Source: an uncultured Pelagibacteraceae bacterium (GTDB lineage Bacteria > Pseudomonadota > Alphaproteobacteria > Pelagibacterales > Pelagibacteraceae). Taken from it: 33,270 bases of DNA. The notes beneath the pieces are model-generated. The model was given only the letters and a program-made list of their open reading frames with translations, had not been told where the DNA came from and made no database searches. A program made the translations under genes and the position numbers. Below, in pieces: positions 18,743 through 32,097 of the stretch (position 1 is its first letter; every line of letters begins with the position of its first letter). The stretch lies in NCBI GenBank assembly GCA_902593405.1, contig CACJIB010000013.1:1-33270 (forward strand). Reading direction: 5' to 3'.

Positions 18743-18750
18743 GATTGTTA

Positions 18751-18778
18751 TTGAATCTGTTGTAATTACTTTTATATT
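18751..18778 (+). promoter_or_regulatory. Candidate ssrA promoter
   Basis: TTGAAT (18751-18756) and TATATT (18773-18778) are separated by 16 bases. The expected start is near 18784, exactly where the first tmRNA hairpin (GTTGG-TTTT-CCAAC) begins. The promoter lies in the 41-base gap between the divergent thyX and ssrA. Confidence 0.5.
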
Positions 18779-18783
18779 AATAA

Positions 18784-19050
18784 TGTTGGTTTTCCAACTA
18801 CGACGATAAACGAATTTCGTAATAACCATTGCGGACGTGGGGGCAGTACCCACCACCTCCACCATTACAACTTATGGGGGTGAACTAGATTCGACGGGTG
18901 ACTAAAGGCTATTCTTTCGTTCGGGATTGTTCCACCGTAACGGGCTAATTTATAATTGCTAACGAAAGTTACGCACTTGCTGCCTAATTAACTTAGTTAA
19001 TTAAGCAAACGGGGTCCGGGGCACCTGGCAACAGAACGCCCCTACTTTAA
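18784..19050 (+). ncRNA. ssrA: Two-piece (circularly permuted) tmRNA
   Basis: The acceptor piece comes first (about 18784-18863). It has a T-arm GTGGG-GGCAGTA-CCCAC, acceptor strand CACCTCC (18853-18859), discriminator A and encoded CCA (18861-18863). After an 11-base spacer the coding piece begins GGGGGTG (18875-18881), which pairs with the acceptor strand through seven pairs. The conserved AGATTCGACGGG follows. The tag frame at 18958-18987 reads ANESYALAA and stop, ending in the usual ALAA degron. The piece ends with a GGGGC/GCCCC hairpin (19018-19022 with 19038-19042). This permuted layout is typical of alphaproteobacteria. tmRNA rescues stalled ribosomes with SmpB. The exact mature 3' end is uncertain. 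Confidence 0.93.
19031..19042. repeat. attL core, direct repeat ACAGAACGCCCC
   Basis: The 12-base sequence is identical to 29415-29426 at the other end of the element. It forms the 3' arm of the terminal hairpin of the tmRNA coding piece, so insertion leaves the gene functional. Beyond it the element supplies TACTTTAATTTAGAA, similar to the CTATTTAATTTAATT that follows the right copy. Confidence 0.85.
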
Positions 19051-19091
19051 TTTAGAATTGTTGTATATCAACAAACCTTAACTAAATTCCT

Positions 19092-19125
19092 CTACGAAGT
19101 TTTCTACGAAGTTTCTACGAAGTTT
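19092..19125 (+). repeat. Three tandem CTACGAAGTTT repeats near attL (candidate integrase arm sites)
   Basis: Exact copies start at 19092, 19104 and 19115, about 50-83 bases inside the attL core. The same motif recurs near attR at 29345 and 29356. Short direct repeats at both ends of an element with a lambda-type integrase are expected for arm-type binding sites. They are too short and too close together to be a CRISPR. Confidence 0.6.
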
Positions 19126-19268
19126 TGAAACGAAAATAAGACACATAGAGAAGTCTTAAATTCAAAGATGATACACACTACTTATTTTGATGAAGACTTA
19201 ATCCTCGTTCAAATTTGATAGGTTTGCCAACTATAACATTTTAGTTCTTAAAGTGAGATTTCGATAAT

Positions 19269-20000
19269 TTATTGTGAAAGATAATTTCTACCTACAATTT
19301 TACCAGAATTTGAGATTTTAAACATTCTAGATAGTTGAATTTTAGTAATGTGTTTTGTTAATTTAAGTTTATTCAAGTAATTGTATTTTATAGAGTTCAA
19401 TCCTCTTCGATTGTATGTTGTCGTTCCTAGTTTTCTTCTTTTAGATATTTTCTCACCACTTCTTCCAATACCTATTCCTTGCGTATAAGTTTTTAAAAAT
19501 ATTTGTGTGAATTTTTTATCAGATAAGTGTCTTGAAGAATTTTCTACCTCTTCATCATCACAATAACTAATATCAGTATAGATTGAGTGTGTTGTTTGTA
19601 ATTTTAAATCCTTTTGTTTATAGAAAGTAAATGAATACCAATAATGTGTGACCGTTCTATTTTTTAATTCATATGTTTCTGTTTTCTCTAATCTATATGA
19701 TTTTATCCATAGTTTTTTTACAATAAGTCTAGATTTGCCTGTAAGATAAACATAGGCATATTTCATCTTGTCATAATCGATTTTATCTTTAGCGATATTG
19801 TAATTAGTAATTTTATTAGTTTTTGTTTTTGAACTATAAAAATATTTCCAAAAATTCTCTAATCTATATTGTAGAATTACAGAATTACCTTTTCTTACTT
19901 TAACATAATTAGAAGTTTTAAATCTGCCACTACCTTTAGGTTTTTCTATTCTTATTGGTGTCTTTCTTCTAATTTTTATCCATTGTGTTTTGATTTTCAT
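19269..20000 (-). CDS. Unknown basic protein, second of a two-gene unit
   Basis: A 243-residue protein I do not recognise. It is rich in Lys, Arg, Tyr and Thr. The middle has alternating hydrophobic and polar residues (YAYVYLTGKSRLIVKKLWIK, HYWYSFTFYKQ), suggesting beta strands. A short acidic patch (YCDDEEVENSS) lies near residue 150. The C-terminus (KLKLTKHITKIQLSRMFKIS) could be a helix-turn-helix. There is no signal peptide or membrane segment. Its ATG directly follows the stop of the upstream gene (TAG then ATG, no gap), so the two are translationally coupled and probably work together. A nucleic-acid-binding or replication role is possible but unproven. Confidence 0.75.
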   Translation of the reverse strand: MKIKTQWIKIRRKTPIRIEKPKGSGRFKTSNYVKVRKGNSVILQYRLENFWKYFYSSKTKTNKITNYNIAKDKIDYDKMKYAYVYLTGKSRLIVKKLWIKSYRLEKTETYELKNRTVTHYWYSFTFYKQKDLKLQTTHSIYTDISYCDDEEVENSSRHLSDKKFTQIFLKTYTQGIGIGRSGEKISKRRKLGTTTYNRRGLNSIKYNYLNKLKLTKHITKIQLSRMFKISNSGKIVGRNYLSQ

Positions 20001-20708
20001 CTAAAGAGTATTTTTAGGAAATATACCTTTTGAAAGATTTACAATTAAATTTTTAGCAGAAACATAGGCAAGTTGAACTTGTCTAAATCCACCATAACCA
20101 ACTTGTCTTGCTATTTCAGAATTGTTTAATGTCTTTAAACTGCCTTGCCATTTGAAGTCTTTATTCTTCCTTAACCATACTTGATACAATGTATTAAGTT
20201 CTTTATGTTTAACGGGTCGATAGAATGATATTGCTCTCTTTTTTTCAATATTAGGAATTTTGTGTATCTGTTTTAACTTGTCTAATTCGGTGTCTATCTC
20301 AACTCTATTTTTAGATAATGGTATTTGAACGGTAAAGTAATTATCATCTTGAATGAAGTCTTTTGGTGTCTTCACATATCTAATAGTAAAGTCACCAAAT
20401 AGATGAATGTATTTGTTAAACATCTTATTCAAATAATTAAACATCTCTTTATCACTCATTTTCAAGTGGTGTTTCATCGATTTAATCTCTTTTAAATCAA
20501 TCTCTTTCCAACCAGTAATTTTAATCTTATGTTTAGTAGAACTTTTCTGTCTATTCTTATTTGCTTGATTAAACTCAATAGAACTACCTTCTAAATCTAC
20601 GCAAACCTTTAACCATTGAAAGAACCACCAAATATCTTTCTTTCCATACTGAATTTTAGACAATGATTTGTCTTTATTTACTTTGATAGTTCTACTTTTG
20701 ATAGACAT
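20001..20708 (-). CDS. Unknown basic protein with C-terminal helix-turn-helix-like segment
   Basis: A 235-residue cytoplasmic protein without a family I can name. The N-terminal half holds an aromatic stretch (KDIWWFFQWLKVCVDLEG) and a Lys-rich region. The C-terminus has TLNNSEIARQVGYGGFRQVQ, which reads like a helix-turn-helix recognition unit. No ribosome-binding site precedes the ATG at 20708. A promoter-like pair ends 6 bases before it, so the message may be leaderless. It is the first gene of the leftward unit and diverges from the structured RNA region. In a satellite-type element this position often holds replication or regulatory genes; here that is only a guess. Confidence 0.75.
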   Translation of the reverse strand: MSIKSRTIKVNKDKSLSKIQYGKKDIWWFFQWLKVCVDLEGSSIEFNQANKNRQKSSTKHKIKITGWKEIDLKEIKSMKHHLKMSDKEMFNYLNKMFNKYIHLFGDFTIRYVKTPKDFIQDDNYFTVQIPLSKNRVEIDTELDKLKQIHKIPNIEKKRAISFYRPVKHKELNTLYQVWLRKNKDFKWQGSLKTLNNSEIARQVGYGGFRQVQLAYVSAKNLIVNLSKGIFPKNTL

Positions 20709-20714
20709 ATACGC

Positions 20715-20742
20715 AATATACAGACAGGGATAATCAAATCAA
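20715..20742 (-). promoter_or_regulatory. Candidate promoter for the leftward two-gene unit
   Basis: On the minus strand TTGATT (20742-20737) and TATATT (20720-20715) are 16 bases apart, and the ATG begins 6 bases further on. Just upstream, an inverted repeat ACTACGA/TCGTAGT (about 20742-20786) and the palindrome TGCGTA-GA-TACGCA (20796-20809) could be operators. The motif TCATCGTA at 20777-20784 recurs in the other divergent promoter region of the element. Confidence 0.45.
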
Positions 20743-20928
20743 CTACGAATAGTCAATAACACACGAGTATAACTGCTCATCGTAGTTTTCTTATTTGCGT
20801 AGATACGCAGATGTATAAATACTTTTATATAGTTTTGTAGAGTTTGTTTTAAATAGACAAAAATAGAGTATCTCTTGTGGTTTAAAGACAGACATTTATG
20901 GGATTAAAATTTTTATTATATCAAGTTT

Positions 20929-21284
20929 GATAGGACAATCAATTTGACTATCCGAAACTCGTAGGGATACGAGGGGAATCGTTGAAGATTATTGAAGACG
21001 AATTATTATAATATGATGAACGATAGGCAGTTAAGGTCGTTCTAAAATAATGAACTGAAAGATTTAGACTATACCTTGAGGTCTAATACACACTAGATTA
21101 CTTAATCAGTCTAGAGAATGTGTGCGGTATAAGGTTGAAGTAAATAGTGAGAACAGCAACCCCACTTATCTTACAATGTAAGTTTTCAGATTAAGGGTGT
21201 CTGGGACGGCAATCAAGAATGTCCTGATACATTTTGTTTATCTTTCGGATAGGCAAGGTGTATCTAAACATCAATCAAGTTTAG
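20929..21284 (+). ncRNA. Large structured RNA candidate, class unknown
   Basis: The 673 bases between 20709 and 21381 contain no good gene. From 20929 they are dense in helices: GATAG/CTATC (20929-20952); CTCGTA/TACGAG closed by a GGGA tetraloop (20958-20973); ATCGTT/AACGAT (20978-21024); CAGTT/AACTG (21028-21057); a pseudoknot at 21064-21131; GGTTG/CAACC (21133-21161); CTTAC/GTAAG (21170-21182); GGAC/GTCC (21204-21224); a 17-bp stem at 21226-21264 with loop TTTCG; and TAAAC/GTTTA (21265-21283). In the 17-bp stem four pairs are G-U only if the plus strand is the RNA; on the minus strand they would be A-C mismatches. This favours a plus-strand RNA. Positions 20810-20928 are A+T-rich with no clear promoter. 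It could be a member of the large ornate RNAs of phages (GOLLD-like), or a long leader of the genes at 21382; I cannot assign it. Confidence 0.6.
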
Positions 21285-21323
21285 GTCATTGGTACTTTAT
21301 TAAATGAGTTTCAATATTGGGTA

Positions 21324-21355
21324 CAAGTGCGAAGCACTTGTTTGCGAAGCAAACA
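21324..21355 (+). repeat. Tandem GCGAAGC mini-hairpins
   Basis: Two adjoining perfect hairpins share the core GCGAAGC: CAAGTGC-GAA-GCACTTG (21324-21340) and TGTTTGC-GAA-GCAAACA (21339-21355). GCGAAGC is known as an unusually stable DNA mini-hairpin, found in some phage origins and phage N4 promoters. They lie between the structured RNA and the first small gene. Function here is unknown. Confidence 0.7.
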
Positions 21356-21381
21356 CACTAGAGAACAAGAGGAGAGAAACA

Positions 21382-21600
21382 ATGGGTGCGATGAGAATAA
21401 GTGATTACTATTTGAGTGAGGTTTTGTTGTTATGTGAATGGGTGATTAAGAATACTGAAACTTCAAATAGACAAAACATTAGAGCAAAGAGTTTAATTAA
21501 AAGAGTTAAAAGATTTGTAAATACAGCAGGTCATTTAAACGAAATAAATGGTCATATTAAAGAAGATAGAAACAGAGCAACTTTGGATAAATTTTTATGA
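21382..21600 (+). CDS. Small unknown protein, 72 aa
   Basis: The start at 21382 (MGAMRISDYYLSEVLLLCEW) is chosen because GGAGAG stands 5 bases upstream. An earlier in-frame ATG at 21304 would read through the tandem hairpins. The protein is alpha-helical and basic (RAKSLIKRVKRFVNTAG) without a signal peptide or membrane helix. It opens a run of five very small genes (21382-22509) whose first two overlap by ATGA. I do not recognise a family. Small basic helical proteins of this kind are common in early regions of phages. Confidence 0.6.
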   Translation: MGAMRISDYYLSEVLLLCEWVIKNTETSNRQNIRAKSLIKRVKRFVNTAGHLNEINGHIKEDRNRATLDKFL

Positions 21601-21731
21601 GTATAGAAAAAGATAAAGACACAAAAGAACTAGCAAAAGAAATCGTTAATGCGTGGAATCAACCATTAGAAAATGAGAGTGATGAAGAATTTAAAGAACG
21701 AATGACGGAAAAAGACACTAAAGAGGAATAA
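21597..21731 (+). CDS. Tiny acidic protein, 44 aa
   Basis: The frame starts MSIEKDKDTKELAKEIV, overlaps the previous stop as ATGA and ends TAA at 21729-21731. It is highly charged, with Glu, Lys and Asp making up much of it, and likely helical. The tight overlap and the matching strand support it as a real gene even at this length. Function is unknown. Confidence 0.45.
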   Translation: MSIEKDKDTKELAKEIVNAWNQPLENESDEEFKERMTEKDTKEE

Positions 21732-21739
21732 ATATAGTT

Positions 21740-21883
21740 ATGAATAAGATTAAAGAAATAATAAGAAAAATAGAAAGTAAAAAAGAAACATTTGAGAAAA
21801 TAGCACTTCTAAAAGAACTAGATGATGAGGTGTCTAAATTTAGAAAAGAACTAATCAACAAGTTTCAAAGGGAAAACAAATAA
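21740..21883 (+). CDS. Tiny coiled-coil protein, 47 aa
   Basis: MNKIKEIIRKIESKKETFEK begins a Lys/Glu-rich, probably coiled-coil peptide ending FQRENK. The stop overlaps the next ATG as TAATG, a coupling seen across the element. No family assigned. Confidence 0.45.
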   Translation: MNKIKEIIRKIESKKETFEKIALLKELDDEVSKFRKELINKFQRENK

Positions 21884-22269
21884 TGTCAGATTTAATAAGA
21901 ATGTCAGCAGAACAAATGCGAAGAAAAGGTATGTTAAATGCTGAACAAAGACGAAAAAGAGAGCAAGAATATAATATGAAAGTTGAACAAATGTCTAAAC
22001 ACAATGTTGGTGGTTTATATGACATACGAGCAATTAAGAAATCAAAACAATTTGAACAACAAAAAAATCATTACAATATTGAACAAGCAAGAAGTGAGTT
22101 AGAGGATTTATTACAAGCAAATCGTCTATACAAATTTTCGTTTGAAACAGAGGAGTTTATTAAAAGGATTTCTGGTAGAGAAGCAGATAGTTATACTATT
22201 AGAGAAACTGGTAAATTCATTTCTGATTTGATTAACGAAATTAAAGTTAAATACGAAGTTAAAGAATAA
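21883..22269 (+). CDS. Unknown helical protein, 128 aa
   Basis: A soluble, charged protein. Its first 40 residues (SAEQMRRKGMLNAEQRRKRE) are basic and probably helical, followed by a Gln-rich linker. A second part from about residue 65 contains LEDLLQANRLYKFSFETEEF. No cysteine motif, signal or membrane segment is seen. It is the largest gene of the small plus-strand cluster and starts on the overlap with the 47-residue frame. I do not recognise it. Confidence 0.65.
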   Translation: MSDLIRMSAEQMRRKGMLNAEQRRKREQEYNMKVEQMSKHNVGGLYDIRAIKKSKQFEQQKNHYNIEQARSELEDLLQANRLYKFSFETEEFIKRISGREADSYTIRETGKFISDLINEIKVKYEVKE

Positions 22270-22329
22270 TCTAATAATCGAATTGTTGAAGTCAGATAAA
22301 AACATAAAACGGCAAATAAGGAAATCTCA

Positions 22330-22509
22330 ATGTGGCATACAAATATAGAACGGCAACAATCAAGACCAAGTGAAAAGAAAATAAATGTGAATTTTACAAT
22401 AAACAAAAATCTTTATGAACAATTTAAACAAGTTGCTCAAAAGGATATGAGAAAATACTCTAATATTATCGAAGGTAGTATTAAGAGATATGTTCAGTCT
22501 AAATTATAA
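22330..22509 (+). CDS. Ribbon-helix-helix-like small protein, 59 aa
   Basis: The frame starts MWHTNIERQQSRPSEK and ends QSKL. Residues 17-57 fit the ribbon-helix-helix pattern: a short strand (KKINVNFTI), helix 1 (NLYEQFKQVAQKD), a turn and helix 2 (YSNIIEGSIKRYVQSK). CopG/Arc-like proteins with this fold bind DNA as dimers and often repress their own promoters. It closes the tiny-gene cluster and is a good candidate for the regulator acting on the repeated TACGATGA sites. The DNA target is inferred. The start lacks a strong ribosome-binding site. Confidence 0.6.
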   Translation: MWHTNIERQQSRPSEKKINVNFTINKNLYEQFKQVAQKDMRKYSNIIEGSIKRYVQSKL

Positions 22510-22550
22510 ATATAAGTACCTTCAACAAAAAGACTTATTAGATGATATGT

Positions 22551-22582
22551 CGGCAGTAGTTTTCTTTCATTCACTACTGCCG
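22551..22582. terminator. Strong hairpin between convergent genes
   Basis: CGGCAGTAGT (22551-22560) pairs perfectly with ACTACTGCCG (22573-22582) around a 12-base loop; flanking ATAT can extend it. It lies exactly between the plus-strand cluster (ends 22509) and the minus-strand lipoprotein gene (ends 22589). It lacks a U-run on either side, so it may act as a bidirectional terminator or as an mRNA 3'-end protector. Confidence 0.6.
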
Positions 22583-22588
22583 ATATGA

Positions 22589-23029
22589 TTAAGAAAGTTT
22601 ATATTCTATTAAGACTAAAGTCCTCCAACCCGACTTCTCTTTTAAAACTTTTTTATGAACTATTTTATAACCAGCGATAGAAACATCTTCTAATTTACTA
22701 TCAGCAGTTAAGTCGTAAGTTTTTGTAATACCCTTTCCATTTTCTTTATGAGTGATTACCTCATTACTTACTAATGAGTGTTGAGTAATATCAGCAATTT
22801 TGATTTTCGCACTTAAAACTGCTTTGGATTCACTTATATTCAAATCCTTACTCCAACCATTTCCACATACCTTGATAACTCTATCTGTCTGTTTGTTTTT
22901 ATTACAATAGACATTGATAAACTTTTGTAAGTCATCAGGACTTGTAATTGTTTTCTTATTCTTAACATATGAACTATTGGTACAATTACTTAACATTAAC
23001 CCAATAATCATTATTAGTATTATTCTCAT
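22589..23029 (-). CDS. Lipoprotein, LPP20-like
   Basis: The 146-residue protein starts with a lipoprotein signal whose lipobox is LSNC, with the lipidated Cys at residue 16. The mature part has two further Cys (VYCNKNK, IKVCGNGW). A C-terminal domain follows (about 68-146: AVLSAKIKIADITQHSLVSN, then LEDVSIAGYKIVHKKVL and WRTLVLIEYKLS). Its alternation resembles the LPP20/FlgT-type lipoprotein fold. It should sit in the inner leaflet of the outer membrane. It is last in the serine-recombinase operon and abuts the upstream gene without a gap. Surface or entry exclusion is one possible role for such cargo; none is shown. Confidence 0.7.
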   Translation of the reverse strand: MRIILIMIIGLMLSNCTNSSYVKNKKTITSPDDLQKFINVYCNKNKQTDRVIKVCGNGWSKDLNISESKAVLSAKIKIADITQHSLVSNEVITHKENGKGITKTYDLTADSKLEDVSIAGYKIVHKKVLKEKSGWRTLVLIEYKLS

Positions 23030-23272
23030 TTAACCTCCTGTTATTGAGAAAACAAAAATCACAGCATTCCAAAACAATTCATTACCTTGTTCCGAATACA
23101 TTAAGTCGTGCCAGAAACCATTACTCATATAAACGGTTTCATTACAGACTTTGATTTCTTTTGATGAAACGATTACTCCGTTTTCTGTAATCGTTTCTGT
23201 TTTGTAGGTACATTCATCAGCATTTACTGATTGAATGAATATAAAAAGAAAAATTATAATTCGTTTGACCAT
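23030..23272 (-). CDS. Small exported protein with Cys pair, 80 aa
   Basis: A signal peptide (MVKRIIIFLFIFIQSVNADE, cut probably after VNA) precedes a short mature part with two cysteines (ECTYKTETI, EIKVCNETVYM) that could form a disulfide in the periplasm. The tail (ELFWNAVIFVFSITGG) is hydrophobic and may touch the membrane. It overlaps the previous gene by 19 bases and abuts the lipoprotein gene. Family unknown. Confidence 0.65.
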   Translation of the reverse strand: MVKRIIIFLFIFIQSVNADECTYKTETITENGVIVSSKEIKVCNETVYMSNGFWHDLMYSEQGNELFWNAVIFVFSITGG

Positions 23273-23508
23273 AACTTCTCTTTCTTCTTTTGACTTAACT
23301 CAAATTGTAATTGATTAAGTATTGCGTCCATTAAATTGAAAAATGCGATATGAACTTCTTGTTCAAAAATGGATTTTCTACATTCGTCAGTTTTACAATT
23401 AGTTAAAACATTGGTTATTACCATTTGATAATATTCATTAGATTTACCAAATGCGTGAGTTGTAAAAGTTAATAGAAACAAAAATATTAGTGTCTTAATT
23501 AACTTCAT
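23254..23508 (-). CDS. Small exported helical protein, 84 aa
   Basis: A classic signal peptide (KTLIFLFLLTFTTHAFG) is followed by a helical mature domain with a Cys pair (TNCKTDECRKSIF) and an amphipathic C-terminus (LNQLQFELSQKKKEKLW). It starts by overlapping the zinc-finger gene as ATGA. Unknown function; one of three adjacent genes for envelope-directed proteins in the element. Confidence 0.65.
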   Translation of the reverse strand: MKLIKTLIFLFLLTFTTHAFGKSNEYYQMVITNVLTNCKTDECRKSIFEQEVHIAFFNLMDAILNQLQFELSQKKKEKLWSNEL

Positions 23509-23732
23509 TTTAACTTACCTCCTCTCGTCAAATCTTGTTCAAAGTCGTAAATATCCAAATCGTCAGCAATACTTTGAGCAAGTTCTTTTCTGATTTTGTC
23601 TTCTCTTTTTTTGGTACAATCGGAACAAAGAGTATAACCAAGTGGCGACTTATATTTCTTATCTAGAAATTTATCGAAATTGGATAATTCTTCATTACAA
23701 TCATAGCAAATTGGAACAATTGTAATCGTCAT
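23505..23732 (-). CDS. Small zinc-ribbon protein, 75 aa
   Basis: Two CxxC pairs, CYDC (about residues 9-12) and CSDC (about 37-40), are spaced as in zinc-ribbon or treble-clef folds. A charged helical tail follows (KREDKIRKELAQSIADDLDI). Such proteins often bind nucleic acid or RNA polymerase (DksA/TraR-like), but the spacing is not diagnostic. The ATG overlaps the serine-recombinase stop as TAATG, so the two are co-translated. Confidence 0.65.
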   Translation of the reverse strand: MTITIVPICYDCNEELSNFDKFLDKKYKSPLGYTLCSDCTKKREDKIRKELAQSIADDLDIYDFEQDLTRGGKLK

Positions 23733-24403
23733 TATGCTACCTCTAAAAGTTTAAGATTATGTGGTCGATTTAAGATTTTATGAACTTGAGGATAATAAAT
23801 TCGTTTGCCGAACTTATTTTTAATCTCATCAGATATCTTTCTATATCCAAGTCCAGATTTTCTTAAATTTATCATTGATTGAAGAACGGTAAATTCCTTA
23901 TCATCTGGTACAAGTTTCTTGTCTTCTACCTTGTATCCAAATTCAGTATATCCACCGAGATATCTTCTCTCTTGTTTAGCAATCTTCTTACTTGCTAATA
24001 CTCTTTGAGAAATATTTTCTCTCTCAATTTCAGCAAGTGAAGCAAGAATGGTGACGAAAATTTTAGAAACACCATCTTTGTGAATATTACCGATATCAGT
24101 AATACAAATGTCTTTGTGTTCCTTTTTAAAATCATCAACAAGTTTTAAAGTATCAATGACTTTTCTTGATAATCTATCCAATCTTGAAACAACAAGTTTT
24201 GAATTAGATTTTAGATTAGATAAAACCTTTTGAAACACAGGTCTTTTTCTAAACTCTACCCCACCAGAAACTACTTCCGAATACACTCTATCAATTGAAA
24301 ATCCGTGAAGTTCAGCAAATGCTCTACACTTCTTTTCTTGAACTTCTAGAGATGTTCCGTTCAAACTTTCTTGATGTGATACTCTTAAATACGCAATATT
24401 CAT
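23732..24403 (-). CDS. Serine recombinase (resolvase/invertase family)
   Basis: The 223-residue protein has the serine recombinase catalytic domain. YLRVSHQ at residues 4-10 holds the nucleophilic Ser9, SLEVQEKKC follows, VVSRLDRLSRKV (about 71-82) supplies the catalytic arginines, and LASLAEIERENISQRV is the E-helix region. The C-terminal HTH is around LGYRKISDEIKNKFGKRIYY. The start at 24403 has a perfect AAAGGAGG ribosome site; a longer frame to 24463 lacks one. It could resolve dimers or concatemers of the element, or invert DNA. It leads an operon of five genes, which differs from the integrase unit on the opposite strand. Confidence 0.93.
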   Translation of the reverse strand: MNIAYLRVSHQESLNGTSLEVQEKKCRAFAELHGFSIDRVYSEVVSGGVEFRKRPVFQKVLSNLKSNSKLVVSRLDRLSRKVIDTLKLVDDFKKEHKDICITDIGNIHKDGVSKIFVTILASLAEIERENISQRVLASKKIAKQERRYLGGYTEFGYKVEDKKLVPDDKEFTVLQSMINLRKSGLGYRKISDEIKNKFGKRIYYPQVHKILNRPHNLKLLEVA

Positions 24404-24417
24404 TAGTTTTCCTCCTT

Positions 24418-24449
24418 TTGTTATTAGACGCACATACAAGTAATAACAA
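24418..24449. promoter_or_regulatory. Inverted repeat TTGTTATT/AATAACAA upstream of the recombinase gene
   Basis: Arms at 24418-24425 and 24442-24449 are perfect complements with a 16-base spacer, immediately ahead of the recombinase ribosome site. It could be an operator or a recombinase binding site. Confidence 0.4.
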
Positions 24450-24493
24450 ATTGGTATCAACACCTACAGAGGAAACAAGCAGAAACCACCCTC

Positions 24494-24575
24494 TACGATG
24501 ACTAAAACCTTAAGAACTCATCGTAATTTTCGTAGTAAATCAATATACGATGACTGAAACCCTAAAAAGTCATCA
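24494..24575. promoter_or_regulatory. Repeated TACGATGA operator-like sites
   Basis: TACGATGA occurs at 24494-24501 and, in a second repeat, at 24546-24553 as TACGATGACT. The reverse TCATCGTA lies at 24518-24525, giving a perfect 8-bp inverted repeat with the first. GATGACT/AGTCATC forms another (24549-24575). CTCATCGTA followed by one variable base and TTTTC (24517-24531) matches 20776-20790 at 14 of 15 positions. The sites fill the region between the divergent recombinase and plus-strand operons. Confidence 0.55.
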
Positions 24576-24577
24576 TT

Positions 24578-24606
24578 TTTACTCGTAGGACATTATGCTG
24601 TATAGT
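24578..24606 (+). promoter_or_regulatory. Candidate promoter for the rightward operon
   Basis: TATAGT at 24601-24606, preceded by TG, has a weak -35 TTTACT (24578-24583) 17 bases upstream. The expected start near 24613 coincides with the first base of the pseudoknot stem, which supports both calls. Confidence 0.45.
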
Positions 24607-24612
24607 AGGGAT

Positions 24613-24716
24613 ATGTTTGAAACAAAGAGAAATTCTAGTAATTCGAAGATGATGAACATCTCTTATTTCAAACATTCTTACAATATCATTGTAATACTTG
24701 GTAGTTCATCATCTTC
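24613..24716 (+). promoter_or_regulatory. 5'-leader RNA pseudoknot ahead of the rightward operon
   Basis: Stem 1 pairs ATGTTTGAAA (24613-24622) with TTTCAAACAT (24666-24675), and AAGAGA (24625-24630) with TCTCTT (24659-24664). The loop of stem 1 contains GAAGATGATGAAC (24645-24657), which is perfectly complementary over 13 bases to GTTCATCATCTTC (24704-24716) downstream. Between lies a hairpin TTACAAT-ATC-ATTGTAA (24678-24694). A polypurine ribosome site and the ATG at 24740 follow. This is an H-type pseudoknot with a nested hairpin and could act as a switch or a translational operator. Confidence 0.65.
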
Positions 24717-24739
24717 ACAAAAAGAAAGAGAAAGAGAAA

Positions 24740-25189
24740 ATGGAAAATAATATAAAAGAAAGACAAGTAAGTGTTAATGTAATTGCTACTTACGAAAATC
24801 AAGAACAAGAGTGGTTTGATACATCGATTGTTATTAAACCTATTAACAAGACGATTGAACAACAATTATCTGTTGAAAAGAAAGTTCTAAAACAAGTAAT
24901 TGCTTGTTTAGAGAATGACAAGAGTGAGTTAGTAAAATTATCTCTTGCTTACACTTTAGACGGAATGAAATCTGATAAAGATTTAATTGAAAATGGTTTT
25001 GGGTTTATCACTAGAACTAATAGTAAATACTATTTTCAACCAGACCAAAGAGGTGAGTTTGTTCAAATGCTTTGTGAAGAATTAAACATCGCAGACAAAA
25101 CTTTATCTTACAAAGACTGGGCAGAAAAAAACAATGTCAAAAGTGTTTCTGAAAGAGGTTCAGAAAATCTAGGTCAAACAATTCAATAA
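24740..25189 (+). CDS. Unknown protein, 149 aa, first gene of the rightward operon
   Basis: The start MENNIKERQVSVNVIATYEN is chosen because it follows a polypurine ribosome site, and an upstream in-frame ATG (24698) lies inside the pseudoknot. The N-terminal third looks beta-rich (VSVNVIATYENQEQEWF, SIVIKP). The centre is helical (SVEKKVLKQVIACLENDKSE), and the C-terminus has KTLSYKDWAEKNNVKS. The protein is soluble and acidic. No family recognised. Its expression is likely controlled by the pseudoknot and the TACGATGA sites. Confidence 0.7.
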   Translation: MENNIKERQVSVNVIATYENQEQEWFDTSIVIKPINKTIEQQLSVEKKVLKQVIACLENDKSELVKLSLAYTLDGMKSDKDLIENGFGFITRTNSKYYFQPDQRGEFVQMLCEELNIADKTLSYKDWAEKNNVKSVSERGSENLGQTIQ

Positions 25190-25209
25190 AGAAAGAGAGG
25201 TACTTAATA

Positions 25210-25716
25210 ATGAATACTGAAAATAATAAAATCTACGACATTTACAAAAGTGAGAATTCATTAACTATGAATTATGATGTTTGGAATGTTGGTCATAATG
25301 ACGATATTGAAATAGATAAAAATGAAGTATTTGCTAATGAACAAGAAGCAATCAAACATAGTAAAAATTGTCTTAAAGAATACGATGAAAACTATGATTG
25401 GTGGTCTCACATTCACGAGGAAATAGTTGATAATATAGATATCGAACCTCATACACATAACATTGAGAAGAAAAACGAAGTTATCAAAAAGAGTGTAGAT
25501 GAGATAATCAAAGACCCACGAAACAAATATTATACTGAAAATGAATTTGGCGATATTGATTTAGATAAAGTTAATTCAAGGTTAATTCAGTTGGGTCTTC
25601 CAAGATTTTGTAAAGTTCATTCTGAAATTCAGAAAAAAGATAAGTTCAGACAAGTTGTTTATTATCTTACAGACAAAGAACCAATAGCAGAAAAGGATAT
25701 CAATGAAACAAAGTAA
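25210..25716 (+). CDS. Unknown acidic protein, 168 aa
   Basis: A soluble protein rich in Asp, Glu and Asn, with an aromatic and His-containing middle (YDENYDWWSHIHEEIVDNID) and a later basic part (LIQLGLPRFCKVHSEIQKKD). No signal or membrane segment is seen. It lies 20 bases after the previous gene and its stop overlaps the next start by 14 bases. I do not recognise it; strong acidity is also a trait of DNA-mimic phage proteins, but no specific match is visible. Confidence 0.7.
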   Translation: MNTENNKIYDIYKSENSLTMNYDVWNVGHNDDIEIDKNEVFANEQEAIKHSKNCLKEYDENYDWWSHIHEEIVDNIDIEPHTHNIEKKNEVIKKSVDEIIKDPRNKYYTENEFGDIDLDKVNSRLIQLGLPRFCKVHSEIQKKDKFRQVVYYLTDKEPIAEKDINETK

Positions 25717-27112
25717 TTTAGATTTCGTTGATAATAAGTTTAGGGAGTTAGGTATTACACTCCCTAAACAAGAGTTAGAATTTGCGACTAAACAATTTGT
25801 CTATCACGGACAAGCAATTGGTTTATCAAGTAATAACGATAGAGAAAGTGATTTAGGAATTTTGGTAGATAAAGATACACAAGAAATTAACGAATGGGTT
25901 TGGAACATAATCACTAAAGAACAAAAAAAAATAAAAGATTTCGAAACTCTTGGTTGGGGTTCAAATATTAAAGAATTCTTAATGACAAGACAAAATCATT
26001 TAATTCAAAATCAAAACGAAGATGAATATTCAATCGCAAGAAGTAATCAGGTCACAAGGTATATACGAGCATTAAATGAAGCAGTTTTAACTATTCCAAG
26101 ATTTAAACAAGATACATTTACTAACAAACAATTTCTTCAAGGTTTTATTAAAAAGATTTTTAAGATTGAATTAAATCAACACGATTTAAACAGAGCAGTT
26201 AAAGATAGAAACTTTTTAAAATATTTCTTTAGTGCTGAAAGTTTAATAACATCTAGTAAGTTATTCTGGATAGTCTTTGATGTAGTTTATACATTTTCAA
26301 ACTTTAGTGAATTTAACTATTCTGATTGGGAAAGAGTTCTTTCAAGATACGATAGACTTTCGTCAGATGAATATTTTGTTGAGAGATGTAAAAAAATTCA
26401 CGGCGATATAGTTGCTAGACATTCAAGAGATTTCTTTAGTGGAACTAAACTTGATGACTACATTACAATGTATAGAGGATTTTTAGTTAAACCAAATCGA
26501 TATGTAAGAAAAGGTATTAAGAAATTAAATAACCCAAACGCACATATTCAAGATGAAGGAAGAGGTTTCAGTTATACATTAGATAAAGAACAAGCAGTTC
26601 GGTTTGGTTCTAGATATCATTTTAGAACTGATTTGAACTTTAGAAAAAACTTACCAAGTCTTTTTGGTGCGATGTCTAAAAGAAAACTAACCAAGAACTT
26701 ACAAAGAGAATACAAAAAAGTTTTAGGAAGTTTTTATAATCAAAACTATTTAAATGAGAATACACGAAGATGTGTCGGTACTTTTAGAGTTAAGAAAAAA
26801 CATATTATCACTTTTGATGTTTTAAGTCCTGAAAGTGAAATCTTTGCTGACCCAAACAATGTTGAGTTGATTAGATATGATTTCATAACTGATGAACAAG
26901 ATATTCAATCAGCAATTTGGAATGTTTCGAAAGAACCTATTGTTCAAGAACAAGGTGAAAAATGTATGCTCAATTTAATCAAAAATGATGAATATCATAA
27001 CGATGTAGAAAGTTATTTGGATAAATTTGATTTAGAGAGAATAAAAGATTTTCATCTTCCAATACCACAATCATCACTACCATTAAAACCAATAGAAAGG
27101 AAAGCAGTATGA
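25703..27112 (+). CDS. Putative ADP-ribosyltransferase (R-S-E type)
   Basis: A 469-residue protein, the largest in the element. Its C-terminal half carries the order of motifs of arginine-type mono-ADP-ribosyltransferases: Arg258 in ITMYRGFLV, the strand GRGFSYTLDKEQAVRFG with Ser290 in the place of the STS motif, and Glu377/Glu379 in SPESEIFADP (ExE). The spacing, 32 residues from R to S and 87-89 to the glutamates, suits the fold. Residues 1-240 are helical and of unknown role. Phage T4 uses such enzymes (Alt, ModA, ModB) to modify host RNA polymerase. A similar host- or helper-directed role is inference. The STS motif is imperfect (FSYT). Confidence 0.5.
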   Translation: MKQSNLDFVDNKFRELGITLPKQELEFATKQFVYHGQAIGLSSNNDRESDLGILVDKDTQEINEWVWNIITKEQKKIKDFETLGWGSNIKEFLMTRQNHLIQNQNEDEYSIARSNQVTRYIRALNEAVLTIPRFKQDTFTNKQFLQGFIKKIFKIELNQHDLNRAVKDRNFLKYFFSAESLITSSKLFWIVFDVVYTFSNFSEFNYSDWERVLSRYDRLSSDEYFVERCKKIHGDIVARHSRDFFSGTKLDDYITMYRGFLVKPNRYVRKGIKKLNNPNAHIQDEGRGFSYTLDKEQAVRFGSRYHFRTDLNFRKNLPSLFGAMSKRKLTKNLQREYKKVLGSFYNQNYLNENTRRCVGTFRVKKKHIITFDVLSPESEIFADPNNVELIRYDFITDEQDIQSAIWNVSKEPIVQEQGEKCMLNLIKNDEYHNDVESYLDKFDLERIKDFHLPIPQSSLPLKPIERKAV

Positions 27113-27375
27113 TTAAACTAAAAGACCACAAACCAACTGATAAAGGCGAATGGAGAGAATTTGAGATTAAGGGAAATGAATTAAAAGTTCTTACCAAGAT
27201 TATAACTAATATCGAAGAATTAGAAAATGCTTGTAAAGAGTTCAAAGAACTAAATCCAAATAGTCCAGAGATAGTCAAATTTTGTAATGATGGTTCGAAG
27301 TTCTTTAGAGAATGGTTTGAACTTTTATCAATGACTATTTCATATGAAAAAGGAAAGAAAGTGAGTATTCAATAA
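27109..27375 (+). CDS. Unknown small protein, 88 aa
   Basis: A soluble helical protein (NELKVLTKIITNIEELENAC) with a conserved-looking end (CNDGSKFFREWFELLSMTIS). Its ATG overlaps the previous stop (ATGA) and its stop overlaps the clamp-loader ATG (TAATG), so it is made together with both. The tight link to the AAA+ gene suggests a partner, but no family is evident. Confidence 0.65.
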   Translation: MIKLKDHKPTDKGEWREFEIKGNELKVLTKIITNIEELENACKEFKELNPNSPEIVKFCNDGSKFFREWFELLSMTISYEKGKKVSIQ

Positions 27376-28004
27376 TGACTTACTTTAATGAAATTCCATT
27401 AACAGAAAAGTATCGACCAAATAAATTATCTGAATGTGTATTACCATTGAGAATTAGTAAGAGATTAGAAAAATGGAAACAAAAACAACCTAATCACTTA
27501 ATATTTTATGGAAACGCAGGAGTTGGAAAAACATCTACTGCGATAGCACTTGCTAAAGAATTAGCACCAGATGATTACATAATCGTTAATGCGTCTAAAG
27601 ATAACGATGACAATTTCATAAACAATTATGTTTCAAAAGTTATGAGAAATATCTCTCTATTTGGACAGAAACGAATTATTATTCTTGATGAGAGTGATAG
27701 ATTAACTGAAAACGCACAGACTTCATTAAGACGACCATTGGAAGAGTTTAGTCATCTATGTTCGATTATCTTTACATTTAACTACGATGATAAAGTAATC
27801 GAACCAATCAAGTCTAGATGTTTAGAATTCGATTTCAATTTAAACAAAAACGAAAAAGATGAAGTTAAACAATCATTAACCAAAAGACTTAAATCAATTA
27901 TTAGAAAGGAAAAGAAAGACATCTCAAAGAAAGAGTTGGATTTGATAGTAAATTCAAAGTTTCCAGATATGAGAAGATGTCTAAATGAACTAGAGGTTTT
28001 TTAG
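27375..28004 (+). CDS. T4 gp44/RFC-like clamp-loader AAA+ ATPase lacking the collar domain
   Basis: The 209-residue protein starts LTEKYRPNKLSECVLP, close to the N-terminus of T4 gp44. Walker A GNAGVGKT (46-53), Walker B IIILDESD (101-108), sensor-1 Asn136 in FTFNYDD and the arginine-finger SRC box (147-149) are all present. It ends with FPDMRRCLNELEVF, which matches the end of the gp44 lid region. T4 gp44 is about 319 residues, so the C-terminal collar that forms the oligomer ring is absent. No clamp, polymerase or gp62 gene is present. It may act on the replisome of a helper phage or the host; that is inference. Confidence 0.85.
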   Translation: MTYFNEIPLTEKYRPNKLSECVLPLRISKRLEKWKQKQPNHLIFYGNAGVGKTSTAIALAKELAPDDYIIVNASKDNDDNFINNYVSKVMRNISLFGQKRIIILDESDRLTENAQTSLRRPLEEFSHLCSIIFTFNYDDKVIEPIKSRCLEFDFNLNKNEKDEVKQSLTKRLKSIIRKEKKDISKKELDLIVNSKFPDMRRCLNELEVF

Positions 28005-28029
28005 GCATTAGTCTTGAATGCTTAAAAAA
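27997..28029 (+). promoter_or_regulatory. Hairpin across the clamp-loader stop codon and ahead of integrase
   Basis: TTTTTTA (27997-28003), G, and GCATT pair with AATGC, T and TAAAAAA (to 28029), a 13-pair stem with one G-U and a 7-base loop. It spans the TAG stop and ends 24 bases before the integrase ATG. U-run and A-run are in the opposite order from a terminator, so it may instead reduce read-through translation of integrase. Confidence 0.5.
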
Positions 28030-28053
28030 TCCATCTACCATTGATTGTCAATT

Positions 28054-29334
28054 ATGCCGAAGATAAATTTTAAAAAAGAATACAACAAACCACCGATTGT
28101 CATTTTTAAATATGACAATAGTAAAAATTATTATTTACGATTTTATGTAGATAAGAAATATGGTCGTAATGGTTGTTATGAGAAAAGTTTAGGAAAAAGA
28201 ATTTCTACATTAAGAGAAGCAGAAACAAAATCAAAACAGATATGGAAAGAATTTTATAAAAATTATTCTACAGATGAATTTATCTATGACATAGATTTTC
28301 ATAAAGATATTGCTAAACCCTATCTTGATAGAATTAAAAAGAGATACGAACAAGACGGCAAACCACAATACTATAGAAAAACTTTAAATCGATACACCAA
28401 TAGTATCAAACCATATTTTGAAGATGTCGATTACAGAAACAAAGATAGTATGAATACAGCAGTTGAAGATTTGTTTTTTGATTTAGACAATCAAAGTTTA
28501 TCTCACGCAACTCAATTAAAGTATAAAGATATCTTAAATCAGATGTTTAAAAAGGCATTAAACAATAATGATGTTCCTTTTAATCAAATACCAGACTTTC
28601 CAAAATTAGATAGAAACTTTAAAACTAGACGAGATAGTTATGAACCAAAAGAACAAAGAAGAATTATCGATGCTTTCTTAAAATTAGGAAAAGAAAAAGA
28701 AAATTCATATTACGATGAAGTTGCTGATTACCTAGAAATGTTAAGGTCTGCTGGATTTAGACCAGGAACAGAATTATTAAAAGTTAAAAGAAATCAATTA
28801 AAGTATATTCCTAGACCAAGTAATCCTAAATTTCCTATTTTACAGATTAAGTTAATTGAACATAAAAAGAATAGTAAAGGCGATTTGAGTAAAGTTCATA
28901 CTCAATCAATTAACGATTATTTCACTTACAACATTTATGAACCAAGAGTTAAGACTAGATATCCAAAATGTAATGACTTTGATTATCTATTTTTTCCTAA
29001 ATTAAAAAACAGACAAAGTATTTACGATAAGATTAGAAAAGACTTTGTGAGAATTAGTCGAGGTTTAGGACTATATCTAGCAACAGATACACCAAGACCA
29101 TTATACACATTCAGACATACATTTATTAACCAAAGAGAAAGAAAAAATGTTCCTGCGAATGTAGTATCACTTCACTCAAATACAGATGTAGAGATGATTA
29201 GAAAGTATTACAAATCTCAAAGTGAATATCAGACTGCTTTAGACCACGAGAAGATATTTCCTGAAAGTTCTGATTTTATCCAAAAACTAGAAAAATCTAC
29301 TACGAAGAACCAAAACAAGAAATCTGACAAATAA
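28054..29334 (+). CDS. int: Tyrosine recombinase (site-specific integrase)
   Basis: The 426-residue integrase has an N-terminal arm-binding region (MPKINFKKEY to about 60), a core-binding helical domain (about 80-185) and a catalytic domain. Catalytic residues are Arg236 in SAGFRPGTELL, a Lys near 271, Arg354 in YTFRHTF (the His before it is Tyr, common in phage integrases), His374 in SLHS and the nucleophile Tyr at 385 or 386 in RKYYKS. It inserts the element into ssrA. The ATG at 28054 is used; TTG at 28045 is possible, and no strong ribosome site is present. It ends 80 bases from the attR core and is the last gene of the element. Confidence 0.93.
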   Translation: MPKINFKKEYNKPPIVIFKYDNSKNYYLRFYVDKKYGRNGCYEKSLGKRISTLREAETKSKQIWKEFYKNYSTDEFIYDIDFHKDIAKPYLDRIKKRYEQDGKPQYYRKTLNRYTNSIKPYFEDVDYRNKDSMNTAVEDLFFDLDNQSLSHATQLKYKDILNQMFKKALNNNDVPFNQIPDFPKLDRNFKTRRDSYEPKEQRRIIDAFLKLGKEKENSYYDEVADYLEMLRSAGFRPGTELLKVKRNQLKYIPRPSNPKFPILQIKLIEHKKNSKGDLSKVHTQSINDYFTYNIYEPRVKTRYPKCNDFDYLFFPKLKNRQSIYDKIRKDFVRISRGLGLYLATDTPRPLYTFRHTFINQRERKNVPANVVSLHSNTDVEMIRKYYKSQSEYQTALDHEKIFPESSDFIQKLEKSTTKNQNKKSDK

Positions 29335-29363
29335 CGAAAACTTACTACGAAGTTTCTACGAAG
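29300..29363 (+). repeat. CTACGAAG repeats near attR (candidate integrase arm sites)
   Basis: Copies start at 29300 (inside the integrase 3' end), 29345 (full CTACGAAGTTT) and 29356 (CTACGAAG then AAGTTT). The latter two are 11 bases apart, as on the left side, and lie about 50-70 bases inside the attR core. Confidence 0.6.
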
Positions 29364-29414
29364 AAGTTTCCAAAAACCTATATTTTCTGTATATAATAAA
29401 ATAAAGGTCGTTCT

Positions 29415-29426
29415 ACAGAACGCCCC
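29415..29426. repeat. attR core, direct repeat ACAGAACGCCCC, with palindromic core-type site
   Basis: This is identical to attL 19031-19042. The perfect inverted repeat CGTTCT-AC-AGAACG (29409-29422) overlaps its left part and is a good candidate for the paired integrase core sites of attP. A T-run (29440-29449) just beyond is probably the original ssrA terminator. It lies between the integrase and ppdK genes. Confidence 0.8.
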
Positions 29427-29430
29427 CTAT

Positions 29431-32097
29431 TTAATTTAATTTTTTTTTAATTTCAGCTTGAGCGGCAGCCAACCTTGCAACAGGAACTCTATAGGGTGAA
29501 CAAGAAACATAATGCAATCCTGCATTTGAACAAAAAGAGATACTATGTGGATCTCCTCCATGCTCACCACAGATACCTAACTTTAGATTTTTGTTTTGTT
29601 TTCGTCCTTTTTCTACTGCTATTTCAACTAAATCTGAAACTCCATCATCTATTGAAACAAAAGGATCAACAGAAAATATTTTGTTTTCTAAATAATCATT
29701 TAAAAATTTACCACTATCATCTCTACTGATCCCAAAAGTAGTCTGAGTTAAATCATTTGTTCCAAAACTAAAGAATTCTGCGTGCTTAGCGATCTCCTTT
29801 GCTTTTATTGCCGCTCTGGGTAATTCAATCATCGTTCCAACTAAAAATTCTATTTTTAATTTATTTTGTTGTTGAACTTGACTAGCAGTTCTAATTACTA
29901 ATTCTTTCATTATTTTAATCTCAGCCTCTGTAGACACTAAAGGTATCATTATTTCAGGAAATGCAGATTTAATTTTATTTTTTTTAAGGTAAACCAAAGC
30001 CTCAAATATTGCTTTACATTGCATTTCATAAATTTCAGGAAAAGATATTCCCAGACGACATCCTCTATGACCTAACATAGGGTTTTGCTCATGGAGCTCT
30101 TCAATTCTTGAATCAACCTCTTTAACTGGGAGATTAACTATACTAGCAATCTCATTAATTTCCTTTTCTGTACGTGGTAAAAATTCATGTAATGGTGGGT
30201 CTAACAATCTAACTGTGACTGGTAATCCACTCATGATTTTAAAAATATCTATAAAATCTTTTCTTTGATGTGGTAACAGTTTTTGTAATGCTATTGCTCT
30301 ATCTTCTTTTGTTTTAGATAATATCATTTCTCTTACAGACAAAATTCGTTCTTCATCAAAAAACATATGTTCAGTTCTGCATAGTCCAATACCCTCTGCA
30401 CCAAAATCTTTTGCTGTTTTGGTATCTTTTGGTGTCTCAGAATTTGTTCTTACTTTTAATTTTCTAAAGCTATCTGCCCAAGACATTAACTTTGAAAAGT
30501 CACCAGAAATTTCAGGCTTCACAGTTGAAACACTTCCAGCAATAATTCTTCCAGTTGAGCCATCAATAGTGATTACGTCTCCCTCTTTAATCTCCATTGA
30601 AGAAGTTTTAAAAGATCTATTTTCATAGTTTATATCAATTTCACTTGATCCTGATACACATGGTCTACCCATGCCTCTTGCTACAACAGCTGCATGACTT
30701 GTCATTCCTCCTCTAGCAGTTAAAATTCCTTTAGCGGCATGCATTCCTTGTATATCTTCTGGAGAGGTCTCTACTCTGACCAAAATTGTATCTTGCATCA
30801 TTGCAGTTAATCTTTCAGCTTCTTCTGATGTAAATACAACTTTACCACTGGCTGCACCTGGTGATGCTGGCAATCCATTTGCTATTACATTAATTGAACT
30901 TTTTTCATCCAAAGTTGGATGCAAAAGTGTATCTAAAGAGTTTGGGTCAATTCTTAATACAGCTTCCTTTTTAGAAATTAATTTTTCTTTAACCATGTCA
31001 ACTGCAATCTTGACTGCTGATTTTGCTGTTCTTTTTCCTGATCTTGTTTGAAGCATCCATAGTTTACTATTTTCAACTGTAAATTCTACGTCTTGCATAT
31101 CTTTGTAATGCATCTCTAGTTTTTTCAAAATTTTTTGAAGTTCTTTAAAGACTTTAGGCATAGATTCTTCCATTGATAATTCTTTTACTTTAGCGTCTCT
31201 TCTAGCCTTTTTTGTTATGTATTGAGGAGTCCTTGTACCCGCTACAACATCTTCACCTTGCGCATTAATCAAATACTCACCATATATTTCATTTGATCCA
31301 TCTGATGGATTTCTTGTAAACACAACTCCTGTTGCACAATCATCACCCATATTTCCAAAAACCATTGATTGAACATTTACAGCAGTTCCCCACTCGACTG
31401 GGATTTGATTTAATTTTCTATAAACTTTTGCTCTATTACTTTCCCATGATAAAAATACTGCACTTATTGCTCCTAGCAATTGCTCATAAACATCTTGAGG
31501 AAAATCTTTTTTTGCTTTTTCTCTTACTGTTCTTTTAAAATCTTCAATTAATCCATCCCAATCACTTTCATCTAAATCTGTATCTAACAAAACTCCTTTA
31601 GTAAGTTTATAATTTTCAATTAATTCCTCAAAATGGTATCCTTCTACACCCATTACCACATTGCCGTACATTTGAATGAATCTTCTATAGCTGTCTTTAG
31701 CAAATCTTCCATTTGAAGTTTTAATGGCTAAAGCTTTAACTGTTTTATCGTTCAGACCTAGATTTAGAATAGTATCCATCATACCTGGCATTGATACTCT
31801 TGCGCCAGAACGTACAGACAACAAAAGTGGATTCTTTAAGTCTCCAAATTTTTTAGAAACATCATTTTCAATTAATTTTAATTCTTTTTTAATTTGAGAA
31901 ATTAAATTTTTATTTAATTTTTTTTTATTTTTATAAAAAATTTCACAAACATTTGTAGATATAGTAAAACCAGGAGGCACTGGAAGACCCATTCTTCCCA
32001 TTTCAGAAAGATTAGCACCTTTTCCTCCTAAAAAATTTTTAGGATTTTTAATTTTTTTACTATCCTTAGAATTAAAGTTTAATATAAGTTTTTTCAT
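29431..32097 (-). CDS. ppdK: Pyruvate, phosphate dikinase
   Basis: PPDK interconverts pyruvate, ATP and phosphate with PEP, AMP and pyrophosphate. The 888-residue protein has the N-terminal nucleotide-binding domain (FLGGKGANLSEMGRMGLPVP near residue 22). The swivelling domain with the catalytic His follows in GGMTSHAAVVARGMGRPCVS (about 460). The C-terminal PEP/pyruvate barrel carries GLCRTEHMFFDEERI, MLGHRGCRLGI and GICGEHGGDP. Length is normal. The ATG overlaps the glyS stop as TAATG, so the two genes are coupled. The gene ends 5 bases from the attR core, with no disruption by the element. Confidence 0.97.
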   Translation of the reverse strand: MKKLILNFNSKDSKKIKNPKNFLGGKGANLSEMGRMGLPVPPGFTISTNVCEIFYKNKKKLNKNLISQIKKELKLIENDVSKKFGDLKNPLLLSVRSGARVSMPGMMDTILNLGLNDKTVKALAIKTSNGRFAKDSYRRFIQMYGNVVMGVEGYHFEELIENYKLTKGVLLDTDLDESDWDGLIEDFKRTVREKAKKDFPQDVYEQLLGAISAVFLSWESNRAKVYRKLNQIPVEWGTAVNVQSMVFGNMGDDCATGVVFTRNPSDGSNEIYGEYLINAQGEDVVAGTRTPQYITKKARRDAKVKELSMEESMPKVFKELQKILKKLEMHYKDMQDVEFTVENSKLWMLQTRSGKRTAKSAVKIAVDMVKEKLISKKEAVLRIDPNSLDTLLHPTLDEKSSINVIANGLPASPGAASGKVVFTSEEAERLTAMMQDTILVRVETSPEDIQGMHAAKGILTARGGMTSHAAVVARGMGRPCVSGSSEIDINYENRSFKTSSMEIKEGDVITIDGSTGRIIAGSVSTVKPEISGDFSKLMSWADSFRKLKVRTNSETPKDTKTAKDFGAEGIGLCRTEHMFFDEERILSVREMILSKTKEDRAIALQKLLPHQRKDFIDIFKIMSGLPVTVRLLDPPLHEFLPRTEKEINEIASIVNLPVKEVDSRIEELHEQNPMLGHRGCRLGISFPEIYEMQCKAIFEALVYLKKNKIKSAFPEIMIPLVSTEAEIKIMKELVIRTASQVQQQNKLKIEFLVGTMIELPRAAIKAKEIAKHAEFFSFGTNDLTQTTFGISRDDSGKFLNDYLENKIFSVDPFVSIDDGVSDLVEIAVEKGRKQNKNLKLGICGEHGGDPHSISFCSNAGLHYVSCSPYRVPVARLAAAQAEIKKKLN

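Follow-up and report, generated by a model that had tools for sequence, protein, structure and literature searches.

An integrative element at the tmRNA gene

The window, that is, the whole 33,270-nt stretch of DNA analysed here (contig CACJIB010000013.1 of an uncultured Pelagibacteraceae bacterium), contains a SAR11 integrative element lying between the 3' end of the tmRNA gene and a partial repeat of that end. Its main features are as follows:

18747–19046 (18770–19078 according to ARAGORN): tmRNA gene
19031–29449: integrative element, about 10.4 kb
19269–20000, minus strand: gene for a 243-aa protein, no Pfam or PHROG family
20001–20708, minus strand: divergent gene for a 235-aa protein, no Pfam or PHROG family
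20709–21381: non-coding interval between divergent genes, 673 nt
20929–21284, plus strand: candidate structured RNA, based on fold and pair probabilities; GC 0.36
21382–21600, plus strand: first operon gene, 72 aa, with AGGAG upstream
21740–22269, plus strand: two further operon genes, 47 aa (from 21740) and 128 aa (from 21883)
23732–24463: resolvase (Pfam, 2.9e-29)
25703–27112: 469-aa protein, no Pfam, PHROG or NCBIfam match
27375–28004: T4-type clamp-loader protein (PHROG, 3.2e-53)
28045–29334: integrase-like protein, no Pfam or PHROG family

The element is bounded by a 35-nt repeat (19031–19065 and 29415–29449), 77% identical and unbroken over its first 12 bases. We read the integrase-like protein as a putative tyrosine recombinase, columns R239, R357-H358 and Y389 being invariant in three aligned proteins; relatives were found in four of the 399 same-genus genomes, the own genome counted, so that such elements are seldom seen. 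Integrase relatives and the att-like repeat are present, although a phage satellite would in addition lack capsid genes and depend on a helper; the element also carries many genes of unknown function. The phage location entertained in the earlier note was not supported: the stretch sits in the 10.4-kb integrative element, and a Pfam and PHROG scan of 10 element proteins recovered neither a capsid nor any other phage structural family. The clamp-loader protein matched 2,507 phage records, every one at less than 60% identity, and its presence on a SAR11 element may be a sign of a helper or rival phage resembling T4. A stretch of the 469-aa protein, which matched no phage, may resemble ADP-ribosyltransferases, as judged by eye. 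Searches of solved structures with three element proteins returned nothing credible.

A near-identical element resides beside the tmRNA gene of another uncultured Pelagibacteraceae genome, AG-359-P21 (locus L024). Whereas the two copies differ at 15 positions over the whole element, the flank beyond it (29500–31000) shows 86, 86 and 78 differences per 500 bases (16–17% divergence), which indicates recent movement of the element. On the other side, the two sequences are similar only from 18773 onward, a position within the tmRNA gene; positions 1–728 of L024, on the tmRNA side away from the element, do not resemble the flank in the window, so that gene order on that side is not the same in the two hosts. 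Twelve of the 14 coding differences are synonymous, supporting both the reality of the genes and their recent spread. Seven of the 15 differences fall in the two divergent genes (19482–20705; 1.4 of 10.4 kb), and six of these seven are synonymous (three of three in the 243-aa gene, three of four in the 235-aa gene).

In another same-genus genome, an integrase-like remnant with one internal stop directly follows the tmRNA gene (L019, 10759–11256), and the tmRNA site seems to have been used again and again. A resolvase 81% identical to that of the window is encoded on a contig assigned to a MAG of the Flavobacteriales (L028, 13–744), reflecting either wrong binning or wide transfer.

The non-coding interval and its predicted fold

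The interval preceding the operon (its bounds depend on our own choice of genes) is the longest of the 11 gaps of at least 50 nt in the window, the next measuring 234 nt, and its GC content of 0.337 ranks second among the 11, in keeping with the long gaps and raised GC used to recognize SAR11 structured RNAs. The candidate RNA differs in GC from the rest of the element (0.36 vs 0.288), where no window outside it attains the same value; across the whole 33-kb window, 8.7% of the 356-nt windows match it. This 356-base stretch is real and non-coding. As the earlier note had stated, it is free of genes: no ORF of at least 60 aa overlaps it, and the longest stop-to-stop frame touching it, among frames starting after 20600, has 44 codons. 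Its parts and immediate surroundings comprise the following structures:

20932–20937 with 21220–21225, plus strand: helix closing the main domain, mean pair probability 0.97
20958–20973, plus strand: 6-bp GNRA hairpin with a GGGA cap, CTCGTA-GGGA-TACGAG
21018–21057, plus strand: possible H-type pseudoknot, 21018–21023/21037–21042 with 21028–21032/21053–21057
21226–21264, plus strand: long hairpin, a continuous 17-bp stem with four G-U pairs
21265–21269 with 21279–21283, plus strand: small 3' hairpin
21323–21355: two adjoining hairpins of 8 and 7 bp with 3-nt loops and GCGAAGC tips

The 17-bp stem is non-random, none of 20 shuffled windows carrying a plus-strand stem as long. It was found exactly where it had been described, with the pairs T232-G258 and T237-G253 (212xx numbering) included, and an 18th pair (U-G) is possible. 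That the four G-U pairs favour the plus strand is borne out by the 150-nt window at 21226, which folds at −39.0 kcal/mol on the plus strand and −25.4 kcal/mol on the minus strand; the GNRA-capped stem was likewise recovered, with its GGGA loop. Among hairpins of at least 17 bp with loops of 3–10 nt, the window holds this one on the plus strand and one on the minus strand (23243–23285). The latter, of 17–18 bp, lies where two short genes meet and near the 150-nt window at 23101 (minus strand, in a coding part of the element), which has the lowest z (−6.05) among 294 windows of that size (mean −0.75, sd 1.37).

The description of the stretch as packed with helices stands in part. The named helices are present and perfect hairpins are in excess, the five of at least 6 bp in 20929–21382, two of which stand downstream of the candidate RNA, being equalled in 3 of 300 shuffles, but overall folding is within the range of random real segments: the z of 20929–21284 was −2.74 (1 of 100 shuffles) and −3.14 (0 of 200), and −2.74 was reached by 5 of 72 random 356-nt segments drawn from the window and five related loci. 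With the long hairpin left out, 20929–21220 gives z −0.08 on the plus strand and −1.62 on the minus strand. The folding energy of the stretch is −87.6 kcal/mol on the plus strand and −70.1 kcal/mol on the minus strand; over 20870–21382, z is stronger on the minus (−3.72) than on the plus strand (−3.1). The pseudoknot can be drawn but is not significant, since 25 of 300 shuffles carry such a pattern, and the predicted fold pairs the region differently.

A hairpin arm at 21087–21096, ACACACTAGA, is repeated at 21352–21361, ahead of the operon's ribosome-binding site, where the copy could compete for pairing and switch the hairpin; a repeat as long was seen in 24 of 500 shuffles. Hairpin tips of the GCGAAGC type are very stable in DNA. 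The sequence TGCGAAGCA was found in eight of 67 loci, six being copies of this element and two viral stretches.

Homologues of the candidate RNA and related elements

The earlier note had raised membership of the GOLLD or ROOL families, or else a new class, and had proposed an Rfam search. When 20700–21500 was searched on both strands at E up to 10, neither these nor any other Rfam family matched, and the proposed membership is not supported. Structure model R1, which was built from in effect one sequence and would miss distant relatives, matched one of 399 genus genomes and one of 282 order genomes, in each case the own genome (the two sets overlap, and strict filters were applied). Of six named genomes, only that of AG-359-P21 (G439) was matched, the hits being the identical copy and another of 9 bits (E 3.74); of nine loci, only L024 was, through that identical copy and, inside it on the opposite strand, a match of 13.1 bits (E 0.024). 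A further 32 loci gave no match, and when five related regions were searched unfiltered, no score exceeded 5.9 bits (best E 0.039).

Nucleotide searches with blastn brought up 34 phage records at E up to 10, the best 20 of which had a top E of 3 and a coverage of at most 5%, and no plasmid at E up to 1. All of the 101 genomes searched at E 10 produced matches; apart from the window itself, those listed have E values of 5.3e-4 at best and lengths of about 52 bases at most, and they are read as chance. Two 16-base patterns from the RNA retrieved 10 and 18 viral stretches, and R1 matched none of these 28.

The only second copy, in the single cell of L024, is letter-identical. Given that about 0.5 difference is expected in 356 bases, its 0 differences are uninformative on constraint, and an identical copy offers no covariation to assess, so that a new class cannot be claimed. 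Within the collections searched, the candidate RNA is specific to this element.

Related elements were located in L025/L038, L026, L018/L027, L017/L029, L028, L036 and L039. A single comparison links the product of the first operon gene to a relative in L026 at E 1e-6 (0 of 1000 shuffles), and the 47- and 128-aa products have relatives in L018 and L039. In L026, a Rep_1-like gene (E 0.0034, below the curated cut-off) ends 17 bases before the relative of the 21382 gene, and L018 encodes a relative of this Rep_1-like protein (E 0.0036); these two weak matches hint at a link to Rep. For the small proteins similarly placed in L036 and L039, alignment gives 22% identity and no Rep family is matched, and L038 contains no match either to the Rep_1-like protein of L026 (E 0.01) or to the candidate RNA. 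The gaps ahead of the operon in five related loci fold at z −2.19 to −4.3 on the plus strand and have no resemblance to the candidate RNA; the control region of the element differs from those of its relatives.

The two divergent genes have no match in 11 related loci (E 0.01); other genomes gave three weak matches to the 235-aa gene (E 1.2e-5 to 0.006), each interrupted by stops, which were taken as chance. The 235-aa protein matched no phage, and its predicted structure has a mean pLDDT of 36.8. Viral contigs were searched for relatives with five proteins and an alignment of the integrase; none was confirmed.

Possible roles of the candidate RNA

Because the rare stem needs its G-U pairs, the GC content is raised and the gap is unusually long, a plus-strand structured RNA at 20929–21284 is plausible. 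Long GC-rich gaps of SAR11 genomes are enriched in structured RNAs, and sorting the gaps by length and GC has yielded such RNAs (PMC2704228; PMC6429828). Tentatively, with a probability of roughly 0.4, we consider the candidate RNA to be a plus-strand 5' leader or control RNA of the element's small-gene operon, a reading favoured by the divergent control region, by the absence of terminator-like sites on the plus strand before the operon (none in 20600–21500) and by the 21382 gene with its AGGAG, which lies directly downstream. The long stem with its G-U pairs, the closing helix and the relatives of the operon genes in related elements also speak for it. Transcription, read-through and regulation are the steps that we infer: a transcript initiated a little upstream of 20929, in the stretch common to it and the divergent 20001–20708 gene, would traverse the closed domain (20932–21225) and the long hairpin before entering the operon at 21382, and the RNA fold would set operon expression or its timing. 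Several observations count against a leader. The two best promoter consensus matches are on the minus strand, with promoter-like sites at chance level overall (six seen vs 4.2 expected); 5 of 72 segments fold equally well; z is stronger on the minus strand for 20870–21382; 8.7% of windows are as GC-rich; and there is no homologue except the identical copy.

The hairpins might instead act as DNA, with the stretch serving the island as an origin of replication or as a single-strand origin. Folded as single-stranded DNA, both strands outdo shuffles (z −2.62 and −2.30), the two GCGAAGC-tipped hairpins stand just downstream, and a weakly Rep_1-like gene occupies the slot in L026, with a relative in L018. 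As DNA, however, the long stem carries four G-T mismatches and is absent from the predicted plus-strand DNA fold, and the 10 scanned window proteins include no recognized Rep family; we regard an origin as unlikely. An ordinary regulatory gap, in which the helices other than the one long hairpin arose by chance, is to our minds just as doubtful. It would agree with the z of −0.08 obtained once that hairpin is removed, the 5 of 72 random segments, the 25 of 300 shuffles with a pseudoknot pattern, the lack of any diverged homologue among those found, and the pre-operon gaps of the five related loci, which reach z −2.19 to −4.3 on the plus strand while being unlike the candidate RNA, but it sits poorly with the long hairpin, the GC raised within the element, the gap length and the high number of perfect hairpins, which 3 of 300 shuffles reached.

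Less probable still is a free-standing, trans-acting RNA aimed at a helper phage or at the host. The T4-type clamp loader encoded on the element would fit such a role, as would the abundant non-coding transcript that Vibrio PLE satellites make (PMC7567579); yet none of 17 leaders belonging to genes of the element is complementary to it above shuffles (z −0.9 to 1.73), and no terminator-like site follows the stretch on the plus strand. We also envisage, as a very improbable reading, that the candidate RNA replaces the Rep_1-like gene of L026 before the same operon and starts or times replication, in which case the two divergent proteins would perhaps be involved; were it true, SAR11 would have a novel class of replication control run by RNA. 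A literature search found no paper joining satellites, phage-inducible chromosomal islands, noncoding RNA and a replication origin.

A structured RNA is credible yet unproven here, and the stronger story lies in its surroundings. If it is confirmed, a SAR11 element that moved recently would have, in its control region, a structured RNA outside all Rfam families, and the near-identical element in two diverged hosts provides a concrete system for testing whether a marine mobile element is controlled by RNA.

Among known systems, the ColE1 primer RNA II is a structured RNA of a replicon, similar in size to the candidate RNA; its priming and its antisense partner have no known counterpart here. 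GOLLD and ROOL are large structured RNAs of phages and prophages, and the candidate RNA likewise has a predicted structure, although it is shorter than GOLLD, many members of which exceed 800 nt (PMC12286853). They are encoded in phages or prophages near tRNA islands; no tRNA was found in the window, and the tmRNA gene, 1.9 kb from the candidate RNA, is the integration site. Like the inter-inverted-repeat transcript of PLE (PMC7567579), the candidate RNA is a non-coding stretch of a mobile element, but it has no antisense match to the element's leaders above shuffles. Among the 25 longest of 172 listed inverted repeats, no pair brackets it. Finally, compared with the SAR11 structured leaders of PMC2704228, the candidate RNA stands apart in being located on a mobile element, absent from Rfam and represented by a single version, while sharing with them its position in a long, GC-raised gap ahead of genes.
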